IMG/VR virus record: IMGVR_UViG_3300044623_000430
Location: 1 to 34,731 of that record
DNA from: a virus
Length of the DNA stretch: 34,731 nucleotides
Direction: 5' to 3' (one strand)
The notes under the pieces are model-generated. The model had not been told where the DNA came from. It ran no database searches and was given only the letters and a program-made list of their open reading frames with translations. Shown piece by piece: positions 9,785-30,296 of the stretch; position 1 is the first letter of the stretch; every line of letters begins with the position of its first letter. Made by a program: the position numbers and the translations under genes.

Positions 9785-12260
9785 AAGCGGTAAAATAACC
9801 AGAGAAGATATAATTGCTAAAGACGCGTTCACTAGTGCCGTTGACGAAGCAAAACAACTCTTAGCGGTTATTAATGAAATATCAGCAGCGTTAAAGACTA
9901 AAGCAAAACAATCAACAGAAGGCTTTGCTATCGCATCACCGCAATCGATTGAAGATGTTAAGAAGCTAACCGACCAGATAGCGGAACTTAAAAAGCAAAT
10001 AGCAGCTTTAGAGGCGGTAACGGAAAAGCAAAAGAAAGCAACTAAAGACCTAACCGCAGCACAAGCAGAAGAAAACCTAGCGCGTCAAAAGCAAAGACAA
10101 GAGGTTACTCAGCAAGTAAAACTTACAAGTGAACTAACTACCGAATACGAGAAGCAAGTAGTTAGATTAGCACAAGTAAAGAAGGAATTAAAGGATTTAT
10201 CGGTACAGGGTAAGGAAGCGCCTAAATCGTTAGTTGAAGAGTTTAATAAGTTAGATAAAAGCGTAACAAAAGCCGAGCAAGGGGTAAAGGAATTTCAACG
10301 CGCTATTGGTAACTATTCAAGCGCAACAGCAGAACTTAAAGATTTAACTAGGCAATTATTAGAACTAGAAAAAGCTGGTAAAAGAAATACGGATGAGTTT
10401 AAAAACTTACGCGCAAAGGCAGCAGAGTTAAAAGATACTATTTCAGATGTAAAAGCTGAGGTAAAGGCATTAGCGAGTGACACAAGAACTATTGATGGTG
10501 TGGTAGGTAGTGTTAATCTTCTTGCGAATGCTTACCAAGTAGCAGAAGGTGCAGCAGCTTTATTAGGAGAGGAAAGTAAGGAGTGGCAACAAACAATGGT
10601 GAAGTTACAGGCTATAATGGCGGTAACAACAGGATTACAAGAAATTCAAAACTTATTGCAGAAGGAGAGTGCCGCAATGATGTTTTTAAATACTGTTCAA
10701 ACTAAGGCAGCAGCAGCAGCACAGAGTCTTTATGCTTTTGCCACTGGTGGCGCGACTGCAGCTACTAAGGCGTTTAGAATAGCATTACTTGCTACTGGTA
10801 TAGGCGCTGTGGTGGTTGCTGTTGCTGCATTAGCTGGAGCGTTTGATGATTTAAATGATTCGGTAGAAGACGAAATAGAGAAGCAAGATAAGTTAGCTGC
10901 CGCGCTATTAAAAACAGATGAGGCGTATAAAAAAATAATCGATAAGTCGGATAAATTAAGAGCAAGAAGCAATGAAGGAATAGACGTGTTGAATAGAGAA
11001 TTGGTAATATTGAGGGCGAAAGGAGCAACACAATTAGAAATATTTGAAAAAGAACAAGAGATAAGAAGAGAGGAATTATCTAGGCTAAGAGCAAACGCTG
11101 CTACTAGATTTCAAACACAAGCAGAGATAGACGCAAACCTAATAGATGCATTGGAATTAGAAAAGCAAATAAAAGATAAGCAAAATGAGATAGATGCAGC
11201 CCAAATACAATTTAAAAGAGAATCGGAAGAAGAGAAGAAGAAAGTTATAGTAAAAAGTGCGCAAGAAGAAATTAAAATAAATGATAAAGTAGTTGAAGAA
11301 TATAAGGATAATAGCGAAGAAGTTCAAACAATTATTGACAATTTAGCGGAAGCCGAAATGGAAGCCAACAGAAAGGCATATGAAGATTCATTAGCGCTAG
11401 CAGAAAAAGAAGCGGCAGAGAAAAAGGTAATAGCAGACCAAAAAGAAAAAGATGATGAAAAAAGAGATAAAGAGAAATTAGACAGGGAAAGAAGCGTACA
11501 AAATCAAGTTATTAAAGGATTGCAAGATGGCGTTCAAAGGAAAAGTGAAATAGTACAAAACGGACTTGAAAAAGAAATTGATAAACAAAACACAGCTATT
11601 GAAAAGCAACAAGAACTAGCTGCTAAAGGATTAGAAAACACGTTAGCATACCAAGAAAAGAAACGTGCAGAATTGCAAGCAAAGCTAGAGCGAGAGAAAG
11701 AAGCGGAGAGAAAAAAAGAAGAGGCGTTACAATTGGCTGGCGCTTTCTTAGGTTCTTACAATACACGTTTGGATAAGGGGCAACAAAGCACACAGGCATT
11801 AGCTGGCGCATTAGCTGATACATTAATTGCAAAAGCAATAAGTTCAACAATCGCTGGCGCATTTGCCGAAGGGGTGGAAAACTTTCAAGGTAAAGGAACG
11901 GGAACGAGTGATAGTAATTTAATCGCCTTCTCTCATGGTGAATCGGTTGTTACTGCTGCGGCAACTTCTAAGTATAGCGGACTTGTAACGGCAATGAATA
12001 AGGGATTAGTTGATGACTACGTGAAGCAAATGATATTACCAGATATGGATGCACCAATGAGCGTAAACACTAGCAGCTTTCAAAGTGCAGCTATTGTGTA
12101 CACACTTACAAAAGAACTAGGGGAACTAAAACAAGCCATCAAGAACAAACAAGAAATAAAAGTGAATTGGAATGCACAAGGCGAACGAGTTGAAGAGATT
12201 GTAAAAGATGGAATGAAGACCGTTATTAAGCACGTAACAACTGGAAAGCGTAGATTATGA
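9777..12260 (+). CDS. Tape measure protein, 827 aa
   Basis: Sets tail length and is ejected with the DNA. Residues about 60-240 are long coiled coil rich in Lys, Glu, Ala and Gln. A Gly/Ala-rich hydrophobic segment (FRIALLATGIGAVVVAVAA, about 333-351) is a likely membrane-inserting helix. Further charged coiled coil spans about 360-660, including a Glu/Lys-dense tract. Near residue 702 the motif FQGKGTGTSDSNLIAFSHGE then VVTA matches the C-terminal G.GT..SDS....S.GE.VVTA element of Bacteroidetes phage and prophage tape measures. At about 1.5 angstroms per residue (textbook value) a tail near 120 nm is expected. Confidence 0.93.
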   Translation: MAESGKITREDIIAKDAFTSAVDEAKQLLAVINEISAALKTKAKQSTEGFAIASPQSIEDVKKLTDQIAELKKQIAALEAVTEKQKKATKDLTAAQAEENLARQKQRQEVTQQVKLTSELTTEYEKQVVRLAQVKKELKDLSVQGKEAPKSLVEEFNKLDKSVTKAEQGVKEFQRAIGNYSSATAELKDLTRQLLELEKAGKRNTDEFKNLRAKAAELKDTISDVKAEVKALASDTRTIDGVVGSVNLLANAYQVAEGAAALLGEESKEWQQTMVKLQAIMAVTTGLQEIQNLLQKESAAMMFLNTVQTKAAAAAQSLYAFATGGATAATKAFRIALLATGIGAVVVAVAALAGAFDDLNDSVEDEIEKQDKLAAALLKTDEAYKKIIDKSDKLRARSNEGIDVLNRELVILRAKGATQLEIFEKEQEIRREELSRLRANAATRFQTQAEIDANLIDALELEKQIKDKQNEIDAAQIQFKRESEEEKKKVIVKSAQEEIKINDKVVEEYKDNSEEVQTIIDNLAEAEMEANRKAYEDSLALAEKEAAEKKVIADQKEKDDEKRDKEKLDRERSVQNQVIKGLQDGVQRKSEIVQNGLEKEIDKQNTAIEKQQELAAKGLENTLAYQEKKRAELQAKLEREKEAERKKEEALQLAGAFLGSYNTRLDKGQQSTQALAGALADTLIAKAISSTIAGAFAEGVENFQGKGTGTSDSNLIAFSHGESVVTAAATSKYSGLVTAMNKGLVDDYVKQMILPDMDAPMSVNTSSFQSAAIVYTLTKELGELKQAIKNKQEIKVNWNAQGERVEEIVKDGMKTVIKHVTTGKRRL

Positions 12261-24999: not shown

Positions 25000-25815
25000 A
25001 TGGAAAACAAACAAACGCAAATCACTGAGGTAAAGCAAGAAGTATTAGCACCTCAAAAAACAAAGCTAACGGTTCAAAATCTATTCGCTAAAGAAGATGT
25101 GCGAGCAAGGTTTACGGAAATGCTAGGAAAGAAAGCGCAGGGTTTCATCACCTCAGTGCTTCAAATTACAAATTCTAACGAACTTTTAAAGAATGCTGAC
25201 CCGTTAAGTATTTACAACGCGGCGGCAACGGCAGCAACTTTAGACTTGCCTTTAAATAATAACTTGGGTTTTGCTTATATCATTCCTTACAAGCAAAAAA
25301 AAGATGGTAATTTTGTAGATGTTGCGCAGTTTCAACTAGGGTATAAAGGATTTATCCAGCTTGCACAACGTAGCGGACAATTTCAAACCATTTCGGCTTC
25401 ACCGATTTACGAAGGGCAATTAGTAGAGCAAAACCCATTAACGGGATTCGTTTTCGACTTCACTAAAAAGACTAGTGATAAAGTAATAGGTTATGCTTCT
25501 TATTTCAAGTTGATTAACGGCTTTGAAAAAACGCTTTACATGACCGTTGAGGAAATGAATAAGCACGGCGTGAAATTCTCTAAAACATTCGCTAAAGGAT
25601 TCGGCTTATGGAAAGATGATTTTGATAGCATGGCTTTAAAAACAGTTCTTAAATTGTTGCTTTCTAAATTCGCTCCGTTATCTATCGAAATGCAACGCGC
25701 TGTTATTAGCGACCAATCAATAATCAACGATGTTGAAACGCAAGATGTAACCTACGTTGATAATGAAAAGGAGGCGCTACCAGAAACACAATGGACTAAA
25801 CCAGCAGAACAATGA
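25000..25815 (+). CDS. recT: RecT-family single-strand annealing protein
   Basis: 271 aa. RecT proteins coat ssDNA and anneal it to complementary strands, working with an exonuclease. Family features include the N-terminal region VLAPQKTKLTVQNLFAKEDV, TAATLDLPLNNNLGFAYIIPY (about 79-99), the central FQLGYKGFIQLAQRSGQF (about 109-126), and MALKTVLKLLLSKFAP (about 211-226). Length matches RecT. The exonuclease partner overlaps it by four bases (ATGA). Together they give recombination, repair and probably concatemer formation for packaging. Confidence 0.95.
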   Translation: MENKQTQITEVKQEVLAPQKTKLTVQNLFAKEDVRARFTEMLGKKAQGFITSVLQITNSNELLKNADPLSIYNAAATAATLDLPLNNNLGFAYIIPYKQKKDGNFVDVAQFQLGYKGFIQLAQRSGQFQTISASPIYEGQLVEQNPLTGFVFDFTKKTSDKVIGYASYFKLINGFEKTLYMTVEEMNKHGVKFSKTFAKGFGLWKDDFDSMALKTVLKLLLSKFAPLSIEMQRAVISDQSIINDVETQDVTYVDNEKEALPETQWTKPAEQ

Positions 25816-26459
25816 TTGAGCAAGGAAGTTTAGAGTGGCATAGACAAAGATTCAGAAAGATAACATCAAGTGAGGTTTCTGTTTTAATGTCAGACAAAAA
25901 AGAACTAACGCAAGGCGCTAGGACTTATTTAATGAGCAAGGTTGCTGAATGTTTAAAGAGTGACGAAATTCTATTGCAAGAAGCAGAGGCAAACGAAGCA
26001 ATGAATGTTTGGTCTTTAAAGCACGGGAAAGAATGTGAACCTATCGCGCGTTACTGGCTAAGTAAAAAGATAGTTTCTGAAATAATAGAAACTGAATTCT
26101 TTCCACACGCAAAACTTCGTTACGGCGGTAGTGATGATGGGTGGATTAGAGAAGTTGACGGCATCGCAGAGATTAAATGCCCACTAAACAGTGGAAAGCA
26201 TTTGTATAATTGTGAGGCAGCACAGTCAGTAGATTTATTTAAGAAAAATCTGAAAGACTACTATTGGCAAATGCAAAGCAACATGATTTTACAGGATAAA
26301 AAAGTAGGTTATTTCTGTACATTCGACCCTCGAATTGACAATAAATGGGGGCTTACATTTTTGCGAGTGCCTAGAAATGATGAAGATTGTGAATTGCTTT
26401 TACGTAAAGTAGAGGAAGGGCACAATTTCATAGAAGAAAAACTATCGTTCTTTAAATAA
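25812..26459 (+). CDS. YqaJ-type exonuclease (RecT partner)
   Basis: 215 aa, PD-(D/E)xK nuclease of the YqaJ/lambda-exonuclease type. Starts EQGSLEWHRQRFRKITSSEV, the usual W...R...iTaS opening. Visible active-site residues are Glu76 in HGKECEP, Asp108/109 in GGSDDG, Glu120-x-Lys122 in GIAEIKCP, and Gln153 in YYWQMQSNM. It degrades one strand of dsDNA ends to load RecT. Its start overlaps RecT by ATGA. Length is at the short end of the family but all motifs are present. Confidence 0.94.
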   Translation: MIEQGSLEWHRQRFRKITSSEVSVLMSDKKELTQGARTYLMSKVAECLKSDEILLQEAEANEAMNVWSLKHGKECEPIARYWLSKKIVSEIIETEFFPHAKLRYGGSDDGWIREVDGIAEIKCPLNSGKHLYNCEAAQSVDLFKKNLKDYYWQMQSNMILQDKKVGYFCTFDPRIDNKWGLTFLRVPRNDEDCELLLRKVEEGHNFIEEKLSFFK

Positions 26460-26488
26460 ATTAGTATTAACAATCAAAAACAAATAAA

Positions 26489-26920
26489 ATGAGTAATTAT
26501 TTCAATTGCAAAATCAAATTTTTAAAAATGGCTGATAACGGTAGTGTCTACTGGAAAACTGAAAGCTATTTAATCTATTCAATGAGTTTCACGGAAGCAG
26601 AAGCAAAGCTGCAAGCTAACTTAGAGGAATCGATACCTGAATACAATCTATTAGCCATGAAAAAGGATAGTATTACTAGCGTTATTTACAACGAAACAAG
26701 CGACTTGTTTTTCAAAGCTAAGATAACTTTCGAATCGATTGATGAAGATTCAGGCAAAAGTAAAAAAGCTACCGAGAGTTATTTAATTCAATCGGACTCT
26801 GTTGAGGAAGCTACTAATTCAATAAAAGAAAAAATGGTAGGCACTGTTGTTCCATGGGAATTGAACAGCGTAACAAAAACCAATATTGTTGAAGTGTTTG
26901 AAGAAGAAGTAAAAATCTAA
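26489..26920 (+). CDS. DUF4494-like protein, 143 aa
   Basis: MSNYFNCKIKFLKMADNGSV with SYLIYSMSFTEAEAKLQANL (about 27-46), a second unit SDLFFKAKITFESIDEDSGK then KATESYLIQSDSVEEATNSI, and an ending VFEEEVKI. The two similar halves (KI.F......S..ESYLI.S.S..EA...I) fit the Bacteroidetes DUF4494 family as I know it. The function of that family is not established; it often sits in phage and conjugative-element DNA-processing regions. TAATG joins it to the next small gene. Confidence 0.8.
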   Translation: MSNYFNCKIKFLKMADNGSVYWKTESYLIYSMSFTEAEAKLQANLEESIPEYNLLAMKKDSITSVIYNETSDLFFKAKITFESIDEDSGKSKKATESYLIQSDSVEEATNSIKEKMVGTVVPWELNSVTKTNIVEVFEEEVKI

Positions 26921-27075
26921 TGACCCACGAAACAACCAATCTATTAAAGGAGGCTATCTTTCAGCTATTGACGCGAAAAGGAATTATACCGAGTACTAAA
27001 AACATCGAGTTGATTTTAACCGCTCACTTGCATACCGATACCCCTTTGATAGATTTGATTGACGAAATGTTTTAA
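26920..27075 (+). CDS. Small protein ending the recombination operon, 51 aa
   Basis: MTHETTNLLKEAIFQLLTRK and onward, overlapping the DUF4494-like stop as TAATG. It is helical, with an His/Thr-rich middle (LILTAHLHTDTPLIDLI), no membrane segment. The next promoter's upstream box begins five bases after its stop, so it closes the operon. No family recognised. Confidence 0.6.
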   Translation: MTHETTNLLKEAIFQLLTRKGIIPSTKNIELILTAHLHTDTPLIDLIDEMF

Positions 27076-27079
27076 AAAG

Positions 27080-27111
27080 TTTGCAAAATCAAAATACTTT
27101 GCATACTTTTA
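27080..27111 (+). promoter_or_regulatory. Promoter of the modification cassette (TTTG-20-TACTTTTA)
   Basis: TTTG at 27080-27083, 20-nt spacer, TACTTTTA at 27104-27111 (one mismatch to TAnnTTTG). The upstream block AAAAAGTTTGCAAAATCAAAA is nearly repeated at the promoter at 31827. The following leader of about 130 nt (27112-27249) contains no clear gene and ends ACAAACAAAAAACAAACAAA before the ATG. Confidence 0.5.
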
Positions 27112-27249
27112 CAAAATCAAACAAATGACGTTCTTTCCCTCTTAGTTTAATTACAGAACATTTTATAGTTAAGAATGAATACAACTCTATAAAAAAGTGT
27201 GTGCGAGATTCATGCAGAGGTATTTTATAAACAAACAAAAAACAAACAA

Positions 27250-28638
27250 ATGAAACAAGAAAAATTATTTAATGACAAAATAGAATTAATACAGGTTGAT
27301 TCTGTGATTGGTTCTGGATACGAAAGCAAGGTAGCTGAATTAGCTTTGATTGATAAAATTGCATACAGGGCAGCACGGGCAAATATGCAAAAACATTCTG
27401 CGATAATTCTACTAATAAATGATGAATTTAGTGGATTCTTTACATATGAAGTTAATCATATTGTTGGGGAATTCTGCTTATTGCAATCTGCAATGTATCC
27501 CGACAGAAAGGATAAGGAAATATATAGCATGATGGTTCAAAAAATTATAGACCAAAATACCTACGGATACCACATGGTAATGACTGTGTCAAACAAACAC
27601 GATTTAGAAAATCCAAAAGTATTTTTAGCGTTGGGTTTCAAAGTTAACTTAGCTAAGAGTGATTTTACTTATATCTATTATGGAAAAGAAGAGCAAGTAC
27701 GAGTAAAAAGACTATGCCACATGGCTATGACTAATTTATGGCAATCAACAAGCGGTGAGTGGCTTAAAATTAAAAAAGAGTGGAACGCAAAATTAGAAGA
27801 GGCAGGAATAAAATATAATATTCCTAATCCTAAATTTGCAAGTCGTGAGGGATGCTGGCAAGGTAAAGCCGGTATGTCGAATGTTGTTTTATCAAAACAA
27901 AAAGTAGTAGATGATGAAATTATAACCGATAAGTCAAAAGATTTAAACGGAAACGCAAGCGTATTAGATCCTACAGCTTGTGAGATTATAGTTAGAATGT
28001 TTATGCCTAAAAATGGGTTTAGAGTATACAATCCTTTTGGTGGTGGAGTTCAAATGGGTTTTGTTGCTGGTGGTTGTGGATATGATTATTTAGCAAGTGA
28101 AATAAGACAGAATCAATGCGATGCTAATAACGCGCTTTGTCAAGATTACCCAAACGTAAAATGGATTAAATCTGATACTTCAAAATTCACGCCTAAACAG
28201 AATTATGATTTAATATTTAGCTGCCCTCCTTATTACAAAGTAGAAAAGTATATTGATTATGATGGCAAAAGTCCAGAAGGGGAGTTAAATTCATTACCTA
28301 CATATGAAAGCTTTAGAGATATGCTTTTTGAAGGTTATAAAAATGCTATTAAAGTTATGAATGATAATACATTCTTTGTAGTTATGACTGGAGATAGTAG
28401 AGATAAAGATGGCGGTTACTATGGAAGTGATGCAGAACACGAATTGTTTTTTAAACAACAAGGGTTACACATTTATAATAAAATAATTTATTTAGAGAGC
28501 GAATTTACACGAAGAGCAACGGCAAAGAAAACATTAAATAGCCGTAAGTATCCTAAATGTGAGCAGCGTATTTACGTGTTCTATAAAGGTGATACAAGTA
28601 AAATAAAAGATTTGTATCCAAACGTAGGAAGGCTATAA
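27250..28638 (+). CDS. GNAT-like acyltransferase fused to phage DNA-methyltransferase-like domain, 462 aa
   Basis: Start at ATG 27250, after an ACAAACAAA leader; an earlier in-frame start at 27199 is not supported. Residues about 10-145 look like a GNAT fold: SGFFTYEV, EFCLLQSAMYP (beta-4 type), IYSMMVQKII helix, YHMVMTVSN, and VFLALGFK like the FY..GF ending. The usual glycines of the acyl-CoA loop are replaced (PDRKDKEIYSMM). Residues about 155-462 match a phage family of methyltransferase-like proteins: SVLDPTACEIIVRMF, motif I-like VYNPFGGGVQMGFVAGG (259-275), motif IV-like IFSCPPYY (CPPY instead of DPPY), and late GDSRDKDGGYYGS. Mu Mom is a GNAT-fold DNA modifier, so a complex base modification is inferred. 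Hand-counted GC is about 33%. Confidence 0.8.
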   Translation: MKQEKLFNDKIELIQVDSVIGSGYESKVAELALIDKIAYRAARANMQKHSAIILLINDEFSGFFTYEVNHIVGEFCLLQSAMYPDRKDKEIYSMMVQKIIDQNTYGYHMVMTVSNKHDLENPKVFLALGFKVNLAKSDFTYIYYGKEEQVRVKRLCHMAMTNLWQSTSGEWLKIKKEWNAKLEEAGIKYNIPNPKFASREGCWQGKAGMSNVVLSKQKVVDDEIITDKSKDLNGNASVLDPTACEIIVRMFMPKNGFRVYNPFGGGVQMGFVAGGCGYDYLASEIRQNQCDANNALCQDYPNVKWIKSDTSKFTPKQNYDLIFSCPPYYKVEKYIDYDGKSPEGELNSLPTYESFRDMLFEGYKNAIKVMNDNTFFVVMTGDSRDKDGGYYGSDAEHELFFKQQGLHIYNKIIYLESEFTRRATAKKTLNSRKYPKCEQRIYVFYKGDTSKIKDLYPNVGRL

Positions 28639-28639
28639 A

Positions 28640-29434
28640 ATGAGAACCTATAAAGATGTAATATCCCTCTCTAATAATGAGAGGGGTATTTGGGATTTAG
28701 ACACTATTAAGGGTTGCGAAAGTGGATTATTAAATAATGAAAAAGGATGTTACAACGATTGCTATGCGTTTAAAACAGCTAAAAGATACGGTATTGATTT
28801 TAGTAAATCAATTGAGCGTAATTTTATAGATGAAAAATATCGTTTAGAAATTATTAGGCAAATTGAAAAAATTGATATGCCTTTTATTAGGATTGGTTGC
28901 GCTGGCGACCCGTCGGAAAATTGGGAACACACTATTAAAATTATTTCAGAACTAAAACGAAATAATCAATTTTCATTATTCGATATTTCATCTAAAAAGC
29001 AAATAGTAATTATAACAAGGCACTGGAAAGAATTAACCTATTGGCAATTGATTGAACTATCAAAATACAACGTAGTGTTCAATACATCAATTAGCGCATT
29101 AGATAGTTCTGAATTGATTGAAAAATCATTGAATCAATACAACAGAATTAAGCCTTTTGTAAAATCTATTCTTAGAATAGTTTCATGCGATTTTAACGAA
29201 GATAATGAAGAGGGAAAACGAATGGCTGAAATACAGAGAAAACTATTTAAAAATGAAAATATAATAGATACTGTTTTTCGTCCTTCAAAAAACAATTACT
29301 TTGTTAAAAATGAAATAATTAAAACAAGAAAAAGCGCATTTATGAAATCTACACAACTACTTAGTAAATACAATAAAAAAGCATTTACAGGAAAGTGTAA
29401 AAATTGTTTAGAAATGTGTGGTGTAAATGTGTAA
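28640..29434 (+). CDS. GP88-like, probable radical-SAM-type Fe-S protein, 264 aa
   Basis: Starts one base after the fusion gene. The Cys pattern is C26-x10-C37-x3-C41 followed by YA (GCYNDCYAFKTAKRYG), then FIRIGCAGDPSENWEHTIKI with C87 and the AGD motif, and a C-terminal C253-x2-C256-x3-C260 (CKNCLEMC). The CxxxCYA, AGD and terminal Cys cluster match mycobacteriophage GP88-type proteins, which look like divergent radical-SAM enzymes. The spacing differs from the textbook CxxxCxxC, so SAM chemistry is inferred. Pairing with the GNAT/methyltransferase fusion suggests joint DNA modification. Five hand-counted lines gave about 30% GC. Confidence 0.75.
   Translation: MRTYKDVISLSNNERGIWDLDTIKGCESGLLNNEKGCYNDCYAFKTAKRYGIDFSKSIERNFIDEKYRLEIIRQIEKIDMPFIRIGCAGDPSENWEHTIKIISELKRNNQFSLFDISSKKQIVIITRHWKELTYWQLIELSKYNVVFNTSISALDSSELIEKSLNQYNRIKPFVKSILRIVSCDFNEDNEEGKRMAEIQRKLFKNENIIDTVFRPSKNNYFVKNEIIKTRKSAFMKSTQLLSKYNKKAFTGKCKNCLEMCGVNV
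28660..28690 (+). promoter_or_regulatory. Intragenic hairpin near the start of the GP88-like gene
   Basis: Positions 28660-28671 pair with 28679-28690: CCCTCTC (28665-28671) with GAGAGGG (28679-28685), extended by A/T pairs and one G.T to twelve pairs, loop TAATAAT. It begins about 18 nt inside the coding region. No T-run follows, so it is not a normal terminator; it might slow translation or pair with another RNA. Confidence 0.5.
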
Positions 29435-29462
29435 TTTTTTCCGTAAATTAGCGGAACTCTTA

Positions 29463-29553
29463 GCCGAAAAGTCGAATTCAACTAAGAAATTGTTAAACAG
29501 CATAAACGGGCAACTGGTTTATAGGGCTTCGACTCCCTCGGCAACCAGCCCCG
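29463..29553 (+). other. GC-rich structured segment, tRNA-3'-end-like
   Basis: The 60 bases 29501-29560 are 55% GC by hand count in a region near 25-30%. A nested structure forms: CGGG (29507-29510)/CCCG (29550-29553), CTGGTT (29514-29519)/AACCAG (29543-29548), AGGG (29523-29526)/CCCT (29535-29538) with loop CTTCGACT. The inner part AGGGCTTCGACTCCCT then CGGCAACCA resembles a tRNA T-arm and 3' end, and GCCGA at 29463 could pair with TCGGC at 29538. A competing stem ATAAAC/GTTTAT (29502/29517) exists. It is not a valid complete tRNA. Confidence 0.5.
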
Positions 29554-29573
29554 AATATGCTTATTATTTTAAT

Positions 29574-30296
29574 ATGGCTAAAGAACTACCTTATTTTAAA
29601 TTCTTTTGCTCTGAATGGAGTGATGGGGATATTACATTAGAGGGTTACGAAACTCAAGGACTTTTTATAAATATTTGTGCTTACTATTGGAGTAATGAAT
29701 GTATTTTAGAAGTTTCTAAACTCAAAAAGAGATTTAGAAATGATGTTGAATTAATTGATTTATTAATTAAAAACAATATACTAAAAACAACAGATGGATT
29801 CATTGTAATTAACTTCTTAGATGAGCAGAAAAACGATAGAAAGTTGAAGTCAAACACTAATAAATATAATGGAAGTTTAGGAGGCAGACCAAAAAAGCGA
29901 AACGAAAGCGAAAATAACCCAATCGGTTATGATTCGCTAACCGAAACGAAAGCGAATGAAAAGGCAATAAGAGAAGAGAAGAGAAGAGAAGATAAGAATT
30001 TAAAAAAGGATTTTTCTGATGAAGTAGTTGAATTAGGTAAATGCGTTTTCAAAGATGAATTTGCAGTTAACAGAGCAATCACAACTTACTCAACTTCATT
30101 AACCAACCTAAAAGAATCTTTTCTAAATTTCTTAATGTCCGAAAAATACCACGAAAAAGAATTGGAAGAGTCAGCAATGAAAAAGATGGCACAGCATTTC
30201 TTTAGATGGCTTTCAACACATCAACCTAAAAAAGAAGTTAAGGTATTAGACAATCCAGCGCCTTGGGTAAACTTTGGTAAAGACATTGAGATATGA
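29574..30296 (+). CDS. Replication protein, DUF4373/DnaD-like
   Basis: 240 aa from the ATG at 29574, chosen because MAKELPYFKFFCSEWSDGDI (residues 1-20) followed by a helix with YETQGLFINICAYYW is the conserved start of Bacteroidetes phage replication proteins. An in-frame ATG at 29427 would add 49 residues reading through the structured GC-rich segment, which I think is non-coding. The N-terminal winged-helix-like domain (1-90) is followed by a basic linker GSLGGRPKKRNES (about 100-112), a charged Glu/Lys/Arg run (EEKRREDKN), and a C-terminal helical domain. It may load the helicase, whose ATG overlaps its stop. The first half is AT-rich like the preceding cassette. Confidence 0.8.
   Translation: MAKELPYFKFFCSEWSDGDITLEGYETQGLFINICAYYWSNECILEVSKLKKRFRNDVELIDLLIKNNILKTTDGFIVINFLDEQKNDRKLKSNTNKYNGSLGGRPKKRNESENNPIGYDSLTETKANEKAIREEKRREDKNLKKDFSDEVVELGKCVFKDEFAVNRAITTYSTSLTNLKESFLNFLMSEKYHEKELEESAMKKMAQHFFRWLSTHQPKKEVKVLDNPAPWVNFGKDIEI

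Follow-up and report, generated by a model that had tools for sequence, protein, structure and literature searches.

Mom of phage Mu has a GNAT fold and makes N6-carbamoylmethyl-A. Thymidine hypermodification pathways use radical-SAM isomerases and acetyltransferases, and those of M6 and ViI start from 5-hydroxymethyl-dU with a DNA kinase. ParB-DNA methyltransferases are encoded by several phages (phrog_498; Listeria B054 gp77, Enterococcus phiFL3A gp36, Croceibacter P2559S_66) and carry the motifs NPFGGG/DPFAGG and CPPY. In phage DNA, CmoX and CmoY produce 5-carboxymethyl-C and the glycine amide of this base (PMC12783734). Here we describe a cassette of two same-strand genes, at positions 27250–28638 and 28640–29434 of the virus record IMGVR_UViG_3300044623_000430 from IMG/VR, which was analysed over its whole length of 34,731 nucleotides (the 34.7-kb window). 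The cassette, already noted as a two-gene unit at 27076–29573 by an earlier sequence-only reading of this DNA (the original prediction), pairs a predicted GNAT-methyltransferase fusion (gene 1) with a divergent radical-SAM-type protein (gene 2). It is probably a module for hypermodification of phage DNA bases, with acyl-transfer and radical-SAM steps, placed in an interchangeable evasion slot.

Gene 1 shares its methyltransferase domain with the ParB-DNA methyltransferases, which are colinear with its residues ~160–462 at about 30% identity. Unlike these, it has a GNAT domain in place of ParB, and a radical-SAM-type gene is always adjacent. The likeness to Mom lies in a GNAT fold acting on phage DNA bases, which is presumed here, and in an anti-restriction role; Mom, however, stands alone, with neither a methyltransferase nor a radical-SAM partner, and a single Mom sequence showed no profile similarity to gene 1. 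The M6 and ViI pathways likewise combine radical-SAM enzymes with acetyltransferases, but genes for their 5-hydroxymethyl-dU and DNA kinase steps were not recognised in the window, where a methyltransferase-type domain would supply the handle instead. CmoA, CmoX and CmoY offer a parallel in that a transferase dependent on S-adenosylmethionine (AdoMet) is joined by a second enzyme that extends the base; CmoX, however, is a C5-cytosine enzyme with an SPPC motif that uses carboxy-AdoMet, and instead of GNAT or radical SAM the system employs an ATP-dependent amide ligase (PMC12783734). Gene 2 is similar in fold to the spore photoproduct lyase/PA0069 family, which its replacement in L018, L021 and L210 resembles in sequence, but it has rearranged cysteines (C26, C37, C41) and extra C-terminal ones, and presumably does not repair dimers. 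No account of this gene combination was found in the open-access literature searched, and a prior prediction in subscription papers is possible. The features of the cassette are the following:

27250–28638, plus strand: gene 1, GNAT-methyltransferase fusion of 462 amino acids (phrog profiles, alignment, AlphaFold2 model, fold search)
27280–27690, plus strand: GNAT-fold domain of gene 1, residues 11–147 (AlphaFold2 topology, viral fold matches, alignment with ParB relatives)
27727–28635, plus strand: predicted class-I DNA methyltransferase domain of gene 1 (phrog_498, phrog_12517)
28030–28047, plus strand: AdoMet-binding motif I NPFGGG, residues 261–266 (invariant in 39 sequences)
28219–28233, plus strand: motif IV S-C-P-P-Y, residues 324–328 (CPPY invariant and common to ParB-methyltransferases)
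28640–29434, plus strand: gene 2, divergent radical-SAM-type protein of 264 amino acids (AlphaFold2 model, PDB fold, replacement in five contigs)
28715–28762, plus strand: candidate Fe-S cysteines C26, C37 and C41 of gene 2, GC..GCYNDCYA (conservation)
29396–29419, plus strand: second invariant cysteine set C253, C256 and C260 at the C-terminus of gene 2 (conservation)

The cassette is a real mobile and obligatorily paired enzyme system that competes for its slot with other DNA-modification genes. An adjacent partner was present for 80 of 80 distinct gene 1 sequences, taken from IMG/VR contigs and GTDB genomes; all loci were gathered by pattern-seeded searches, which are biased to closer relatives. 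The partner is a gene 2-type gene downstream in 69 cases and upstream in 6, and a canonical radical-SAM gene in the remaining 5. The usual gap between gene 1 and gene 2 is +2 or -1 nucleotides, as is typical of translational coupling, and in the viral contig L027 gene 2, GNAT and methyltransferase form a single open frame of 737 amino acids. Pairwise identities of the two genes correlate (r = 0.78), with gene 2 evolving faster; no third conserved partner gene was present in 52 contexts. Relatives of the cassette are found in contigs binned to Bacteroidetes, Desulfobacterota-type and Spirochaetes genomes, and the closest relatives of gene 1 (92–94% identical) belong to phages that have no other gene of the window in the stretch compared. 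The constant pairing, the fusion in L027 and the non-homologous radical-SAM replacement together argue that the three activities are required to work together.

Profile and fold comparisons show gene 1 (start at ATG 27250, not at the upstream GTG 27199) as a predicted union of a GNAT acyltransferase fold with a DNA methyltransferase domain that depends on AdoMet and belongs to the phage ParB-methyltransferase family. Residues 181–458 match the DNA methyltransferase profiles phrog_498 (E = 5.3e-39) and phrog_12517 (E = 1.4e-40), and a match to Pfam N6_N4_Mtase falls below the cut-off. Relatives in named phages are ParB-methyltransferases (about 30% identity). Alignment with eight of them places the start of the methyltransferase domain just past the ParB domain; the N-terminal ~150 residues of gene 1 stand in place of this domain, which characterizes the phrog_498 family and is lacking here. 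The unusual CPPY in motif IV is common to gene 1 and all eight relatives, with Cys at the position where canonical amino-methyltransferases have D, N or S. The AlphaFold2 model of the N-terminal region is a confident domain with the GNAT order β-α-α-β-β-β-α-β-α-β-β. Its search against a viral fold library returned GNAT/RimI proteins (target-based TM-score, TMt, 0.6–0.7); the PDB match to the GNAT protein 3bln is weak but colinear (E = 0.58), and no Pfam GNAT model matches gene 1. In conservation the GNAT domain comes close to the methyltransferase domain (mean identity 71% versus 77%). BFVD already includes an uncharacterised phage protein, A0A6J5SUH2, with 66% identity. Assignment to a known defence system was not adopted, PADLOC having given only a weak partial mad2 match in the methyltransferase domain (residues 239–389, E = 3e-9). 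L105 and L187 carry an interrupted fusion gene, for which sequencing error is possible. L049 (624–1274, minus strand) and L111 (966–1634, minus strand) each encode, elsewhere on the contig, another methyltransferase with about 30% identity to the gene 1 methyltransferase domain.

Gene 2 and its replacements are likewise shown by comparison to be radical-SAM-type proteins; for gene 2 a [4Fe-4S] cluster and AdoMet cleavage are predicted. Among 32 relatives of gene 2, C37, C41, C253, C256, C260, GDPS and T-R/K-H-W are invariant or nearly so, and C26 is nearly invariant; the cysteines are spaced C-X10-C-X3-C instead of the canonical CX3CX2C. The AlphaFold2 model is confident (predicted local distance difference test, pLDDT, 92). 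Its best Foldseek match in the PDB is spore photoproduct lyase 4k9r (probability 0.92, query-based TM-score, TMq, 0.52, E = 0.027), which gives it a partial TIM-barrel fold as in known radical-SAM enzymes, and another such enzyme, OxsB, is also among the matches. Gene 2 has no Pfam match; its family has no Radical_SAM match either, and one member weakly matches Fer4_12 (E = 0.0046). The label "GP88-like" that gene 2 had been given was dropped, since the window protein does not match Pfam GP88 (PF17338) and only 1 of 32 family members reaches that model, at E = 0.051. In L018, L021 and L210 gene 2 is replaced by a canonical CX3CX2C radical-SAM protein, with broken forms in L023 and L217. This protein matches Pfam Radical_SAM (E = 7.8e-8), the PA0069 and Rv2578c families and radical SAM mobile pair protein B; its match to spore photoproduct lyase is weak (TIGR04070 of NCBIfam, E = 0.0013). 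The order of motifs agrees by eye between gene 2 and the replacement (GC..C..YA, R/K-x-G-x2-G/T-D, IxTR/K, K/V-S-V-x-R). The replacement is a stronger argument for the identity of gene 2 than the moderate fold scores. As for the degenerate partners, the radical-SAM gene is split over two frames in L023 (7389–8242), and in L217 (7569–7835) it is shorn of most of its length; sequencing error is possible in both.

The cassette lies between a RecT/YqaJ recombination operon on the left and a replication operon on the right, as originally predicted. The surroundings of the cassette comprise:

25000–26920, plus strand: left flank with RecT, YqaJ exonuclease and DUF4494 (Pfam)
26920–27075, plus strand: open reading frame of 51 amino acids (MTHETTNLLKEAIFQLLTRKG...), the final gene before the slot (sequence; equivalent in L047 at 1653–1808)
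27076–27249, plus strand: slot leader, with a weak match to a Bacteroidetes-type promoter and ~130 nucleotides of highly conserved leader (comparison of loci)
29440–29573, plus strand: RNA-like element with a pseudoknot, the leader of the replication gene (folding, covariation)
29574–30296, plus strand: replication gene, right flank of the slot (phrog_29280/primosomal protein)

The counterpart of the small open reading frame in L047 lies immediately 3' of the exonuclease gene. The true start of the replication gene is ATG 29574 (MAKELPYFKF...), as it is in L049 and L050. The helicase gene of the window is 94–96% identical in 16 other viral contigs (L029–L044). Of the 17 loci reaching from exonuclease to helicase, not one has the cassette, so that it is not at the same place in all relatives, and other occupants are found instead. 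Slot contents were examined in 15 loci, several of them contigs from related samples and not all independent. A helicase-methyltransferase of 719 amino acids (SNF2/DEAD and N6_N4) fills the slot in L029, L034, L036, L045, L048, L049 and L052, a PAPS reductase with a ParB-type protein in L038 and L047 (in L047 also a helicase), and an N6_N4 methyltransferase with a small second gene in L050; the slot has no modification gene in L037, L039, L040, L042 and L051. Exchange with other DNA-modification modules thus takes place at one genomic slot. Compared with L049, the window has 94% identity up to the start codon at 27250, none until 29443, just after the stop codon of gene 2, and 86% from there into the replication gene. 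The alignments show that each exchange in the slot runs from the start codon to the stop codon of the module, flanked by a conserved leader on one side and a conserved RNA and replication gene on the other. The view of a two-gene candidate hypermodification system acquired and exchanged as a unit is borne out by the 80/80 pairing, by the unrelated backbones and by the slot occupants, which are mostly DNA-modification genes.

The PAPS reductase (DUF3440) and ParB-type protein, at 2291–5173 in L047 (plus SNF2 helicase) and 1743–3648 in L038, are a candidate modification module in their own right. Small slot proteins in L039 (1900–2469) and L051 (6765–7127) resemble HNH homing endonucleases on inspection.

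Based on these data, we hypothesize a mechanism in which the methyltransferase domain would bind phage DNA, flip out adenine or cytosine and put an AdoMet-derived group on the flipped base, or prepare the base. The radical-SAM enzyme may functionalise this group or another unactivated carbon, and the GNAT domain would complete a bulky base by transferring an acyl or similar moiety; such a base could shield phage DNA from host restriction. A putative role of the cassette in defence evasion is plausible. More tentatively, the combination of a methyltransferase fold with Cys in motif IV, a GNAT domain and a radical-SAM protein like spore photoproduct lyase may possibly constitute a new class of DNA base modification, which would build amine- or acyl-bearing adenine or cytosine on double-stranded phage DNA and be widespread in Bacteroidetes-type and other phages. 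The Riemerella contig L222, in which a second acyltransferase-type domain, LPG_synthase_C (E = 0.011), is joined to a methyltransferase of this family, is counted in favour of hypermodification. On the same contig (1481–7323; Riemerella columbipharyngis NZ_FNAS01000028), an 889-aa HNH_4 protein with a Cas9-like look adjoins an SNF2 helicase and the LPG_synthase_C-CPPY fusion.

Several observations weigh against hypermodification by the cassette. By inspection of the sequence, the usual CoA loop of GNAT proteins, Q/RxxGxG/A, is not visible between β4 and α3. Direct homology to Mom was not supported, since comparison of the gene 1 profile with a single Mu Mom sequence (hhalign) gave a probability of about 0. 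The PDB fold match of gene 2 to spore photoproduct lyase is only moderate in strength, and profile comparison of gene 2 with its canonical replacement gave no match with very shallow alignments; the radical-SAM assignment of gene 2 therefore rests on fold, replacement and motif order. The phage is known from metagenomes alone. Finally, most of the methyltransferase domain's ParB relatives stand alone, so that plain methylation is possible.

This last point favours ordinary DNA methylation (m6A or m4C), with the GNAT and the radical-SAM-type protein doing unrelated jobs such as modification of a host protein, since the relatives usually have no such partner; phage GNATs that act on host proteins have moreover been discussed (PMC7824862). 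The invariable pairing, the three-domain fusion in L027, the exchange of gene 2 for a non-homologous radical-SAM protein and the conservation of the GNAT domain, close to that of the methyltransferase domain, all speak against such independence, and we consider this explanation unlikely.

Still less likely, in our judgement, is a scheme in which the methyltransferase fold transfers an aminopropyl or aminocarboxypropyl group from AdoMet, the GNAT domain acylates the free amine, and CPPY marks a non-methyl transferase. Cys replaces the catalytic D/N/S across the whole family, AdoMet-decarboxylase-like genes directly follow ParB-CPPY genes in P2559S, ZRG1 and 4 of 76 further loci, and enzymes dependent on pyridoxal phosphate (PLP) are adjacent (Vincenzo) or fused (Pam4); these neighbours are a hint that the CPPY family may transfer groups larger than methyl. 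However, such partners are a minority, absent from beside most ParB-CPPY genes, SpeD homologues of phages may act as ornithine or arginine decarboxylases (PMC10407285), and the window holds no SpeD- or PLP-type gene. A general SpeD or PLP partnership of CPPY methyltransferases was rejected on account of this minority. The SpeD genes directly after ParB-CPPY methyltransferases occur in unrelated phages (L137 5791–6111, L140 4950–5339, L243, L254, L256, L263); the PLP-dependent enzyme is adjacent in Mycobacterium phage Vincenzo (L141 1406–2275) and fused in Pseudanabaena phage Pam4 (L145 2024–4513).

Repair or de-modification of DNA, in which a lyase-like enzyme reverses damage or strips host marks while gene 1 protects or marks the repaired DNA, draws on spore photoproduct lyase as the closest solved fold of gene 2, on the weak match of the replacement protein to the same lyase family and on the adjoining recombination genes, but is very improbable given that the other slot occupants are modification genes, that the replacement protein fits general radical-SAM families better than the lyase and that the fused GNAT domain would be left unexplained.

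The window belongs to a tailed phage of flavobacterial type, with genes for terminase, portal and major head protein. Relatives of the portal protein in named phages are mostly those of Flavobacterium and Polaribacter phages, at low identity (best ~32%), and megablast of positions 10000–34731 gave no DNA-level match to any named phage.

The region had been described as AT-rich, and in sliding windows its composition is indeed not uniform. The guanine-cytosine (GC) content of 27076–29573 is 31.2%, versus 35.9% for the whole window; values this low occur in only 1.4% of 2.5-kb windows, and the window-wide minimum is found here (starting at 27001). Earlier hand counts were 33, 30 and 42% for fusion gene, gene 2 and helicase gene; the computed values are 32.8, 28.2 and 39.8%. 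The low-GC tract does reach into the first half of the replication gene (29427–29900, 31.4%). The step from low GC to transfer did not hold. In all 59 distinct pair-carrying contigs gene 2 has a lower GC content than its flanks (27.7% versus 34.7%), and it is always below gene 1, while the GC of gene 1 tracks that of the flanks (r = 0.89 in these contigs). Because gene 2 is AT-rich in every context and gene 1 follows its flanks, low GC is no proof of recent transfer; it is an intrinsic property of the cassette genes that is tuned to each phage and gives no date for a transfer.

The slot leader ahead of gene 1 matches the Bacteroidetes promoter consensus only weakly (TTTG at 27080, a 20-nt spacer and TACTTTTA at 27104). 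It includes a stretch of ~130 nucleotides (ATCAAACAAACGACGTTCTTTCCCTCTTAG...GTGTGTGCGAGATTCATGCAG), and it folds no better than shuffled sequences (z = -0.07). Since a nearly identical leader precedes three different kinds of module, promoter and leader belong to the slot and are not, as had been supposed, the cassette's own. A common regulator of the three DNA-modification modules is possible. The leader (27120–27249; also in L029, L036, L041, L045, L047, L048, L049 and L052) is more conserved than the genes it precedes.

The structured segment at the right border is real (folding z = -3.3), but it is not part of the cassette as was first thought: it is kept in phages without the cassette and hence belongs to the replication leader. 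It is conserved in 13 aligned loci with differing slot contents. Pairing in the pseudoknot helix reaches 95.6%, and 6 of its 7 pairs show double changes. On percentage paired and on covariation score the full structure exceeds all 500 shuffles, and it also outdoes each of the slid versions, although the structure was named by eye from the same sequences and the slid control somewhat favours it. Identity as a tRNA or an Rfam family was rejected, as neither gave a match. The element is a candidate for a new family of cis-regulatory or catalytic RNA. Across the phage group it spans ~110–130 nucleotides and lies before the replication gene (L029 6833, L036 5967, L042 7198, L049 7053 and others).

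If hypermodification by the cassette is true, radical-SAM chemistry and acyl transfer would be coupled to a DNA methyltransferase in a compact module of two genes, sometimes of one. Such a module would be easy to express and test, and may open the way to an as yet unknown DNA base and new DNA-labelling enzymes. The slot itself represents a natural experiment, with near-identical backbones that share a conserved leader and differ only in the DNA-modification module, and it lets the value of each module against host restriction be compared directly.

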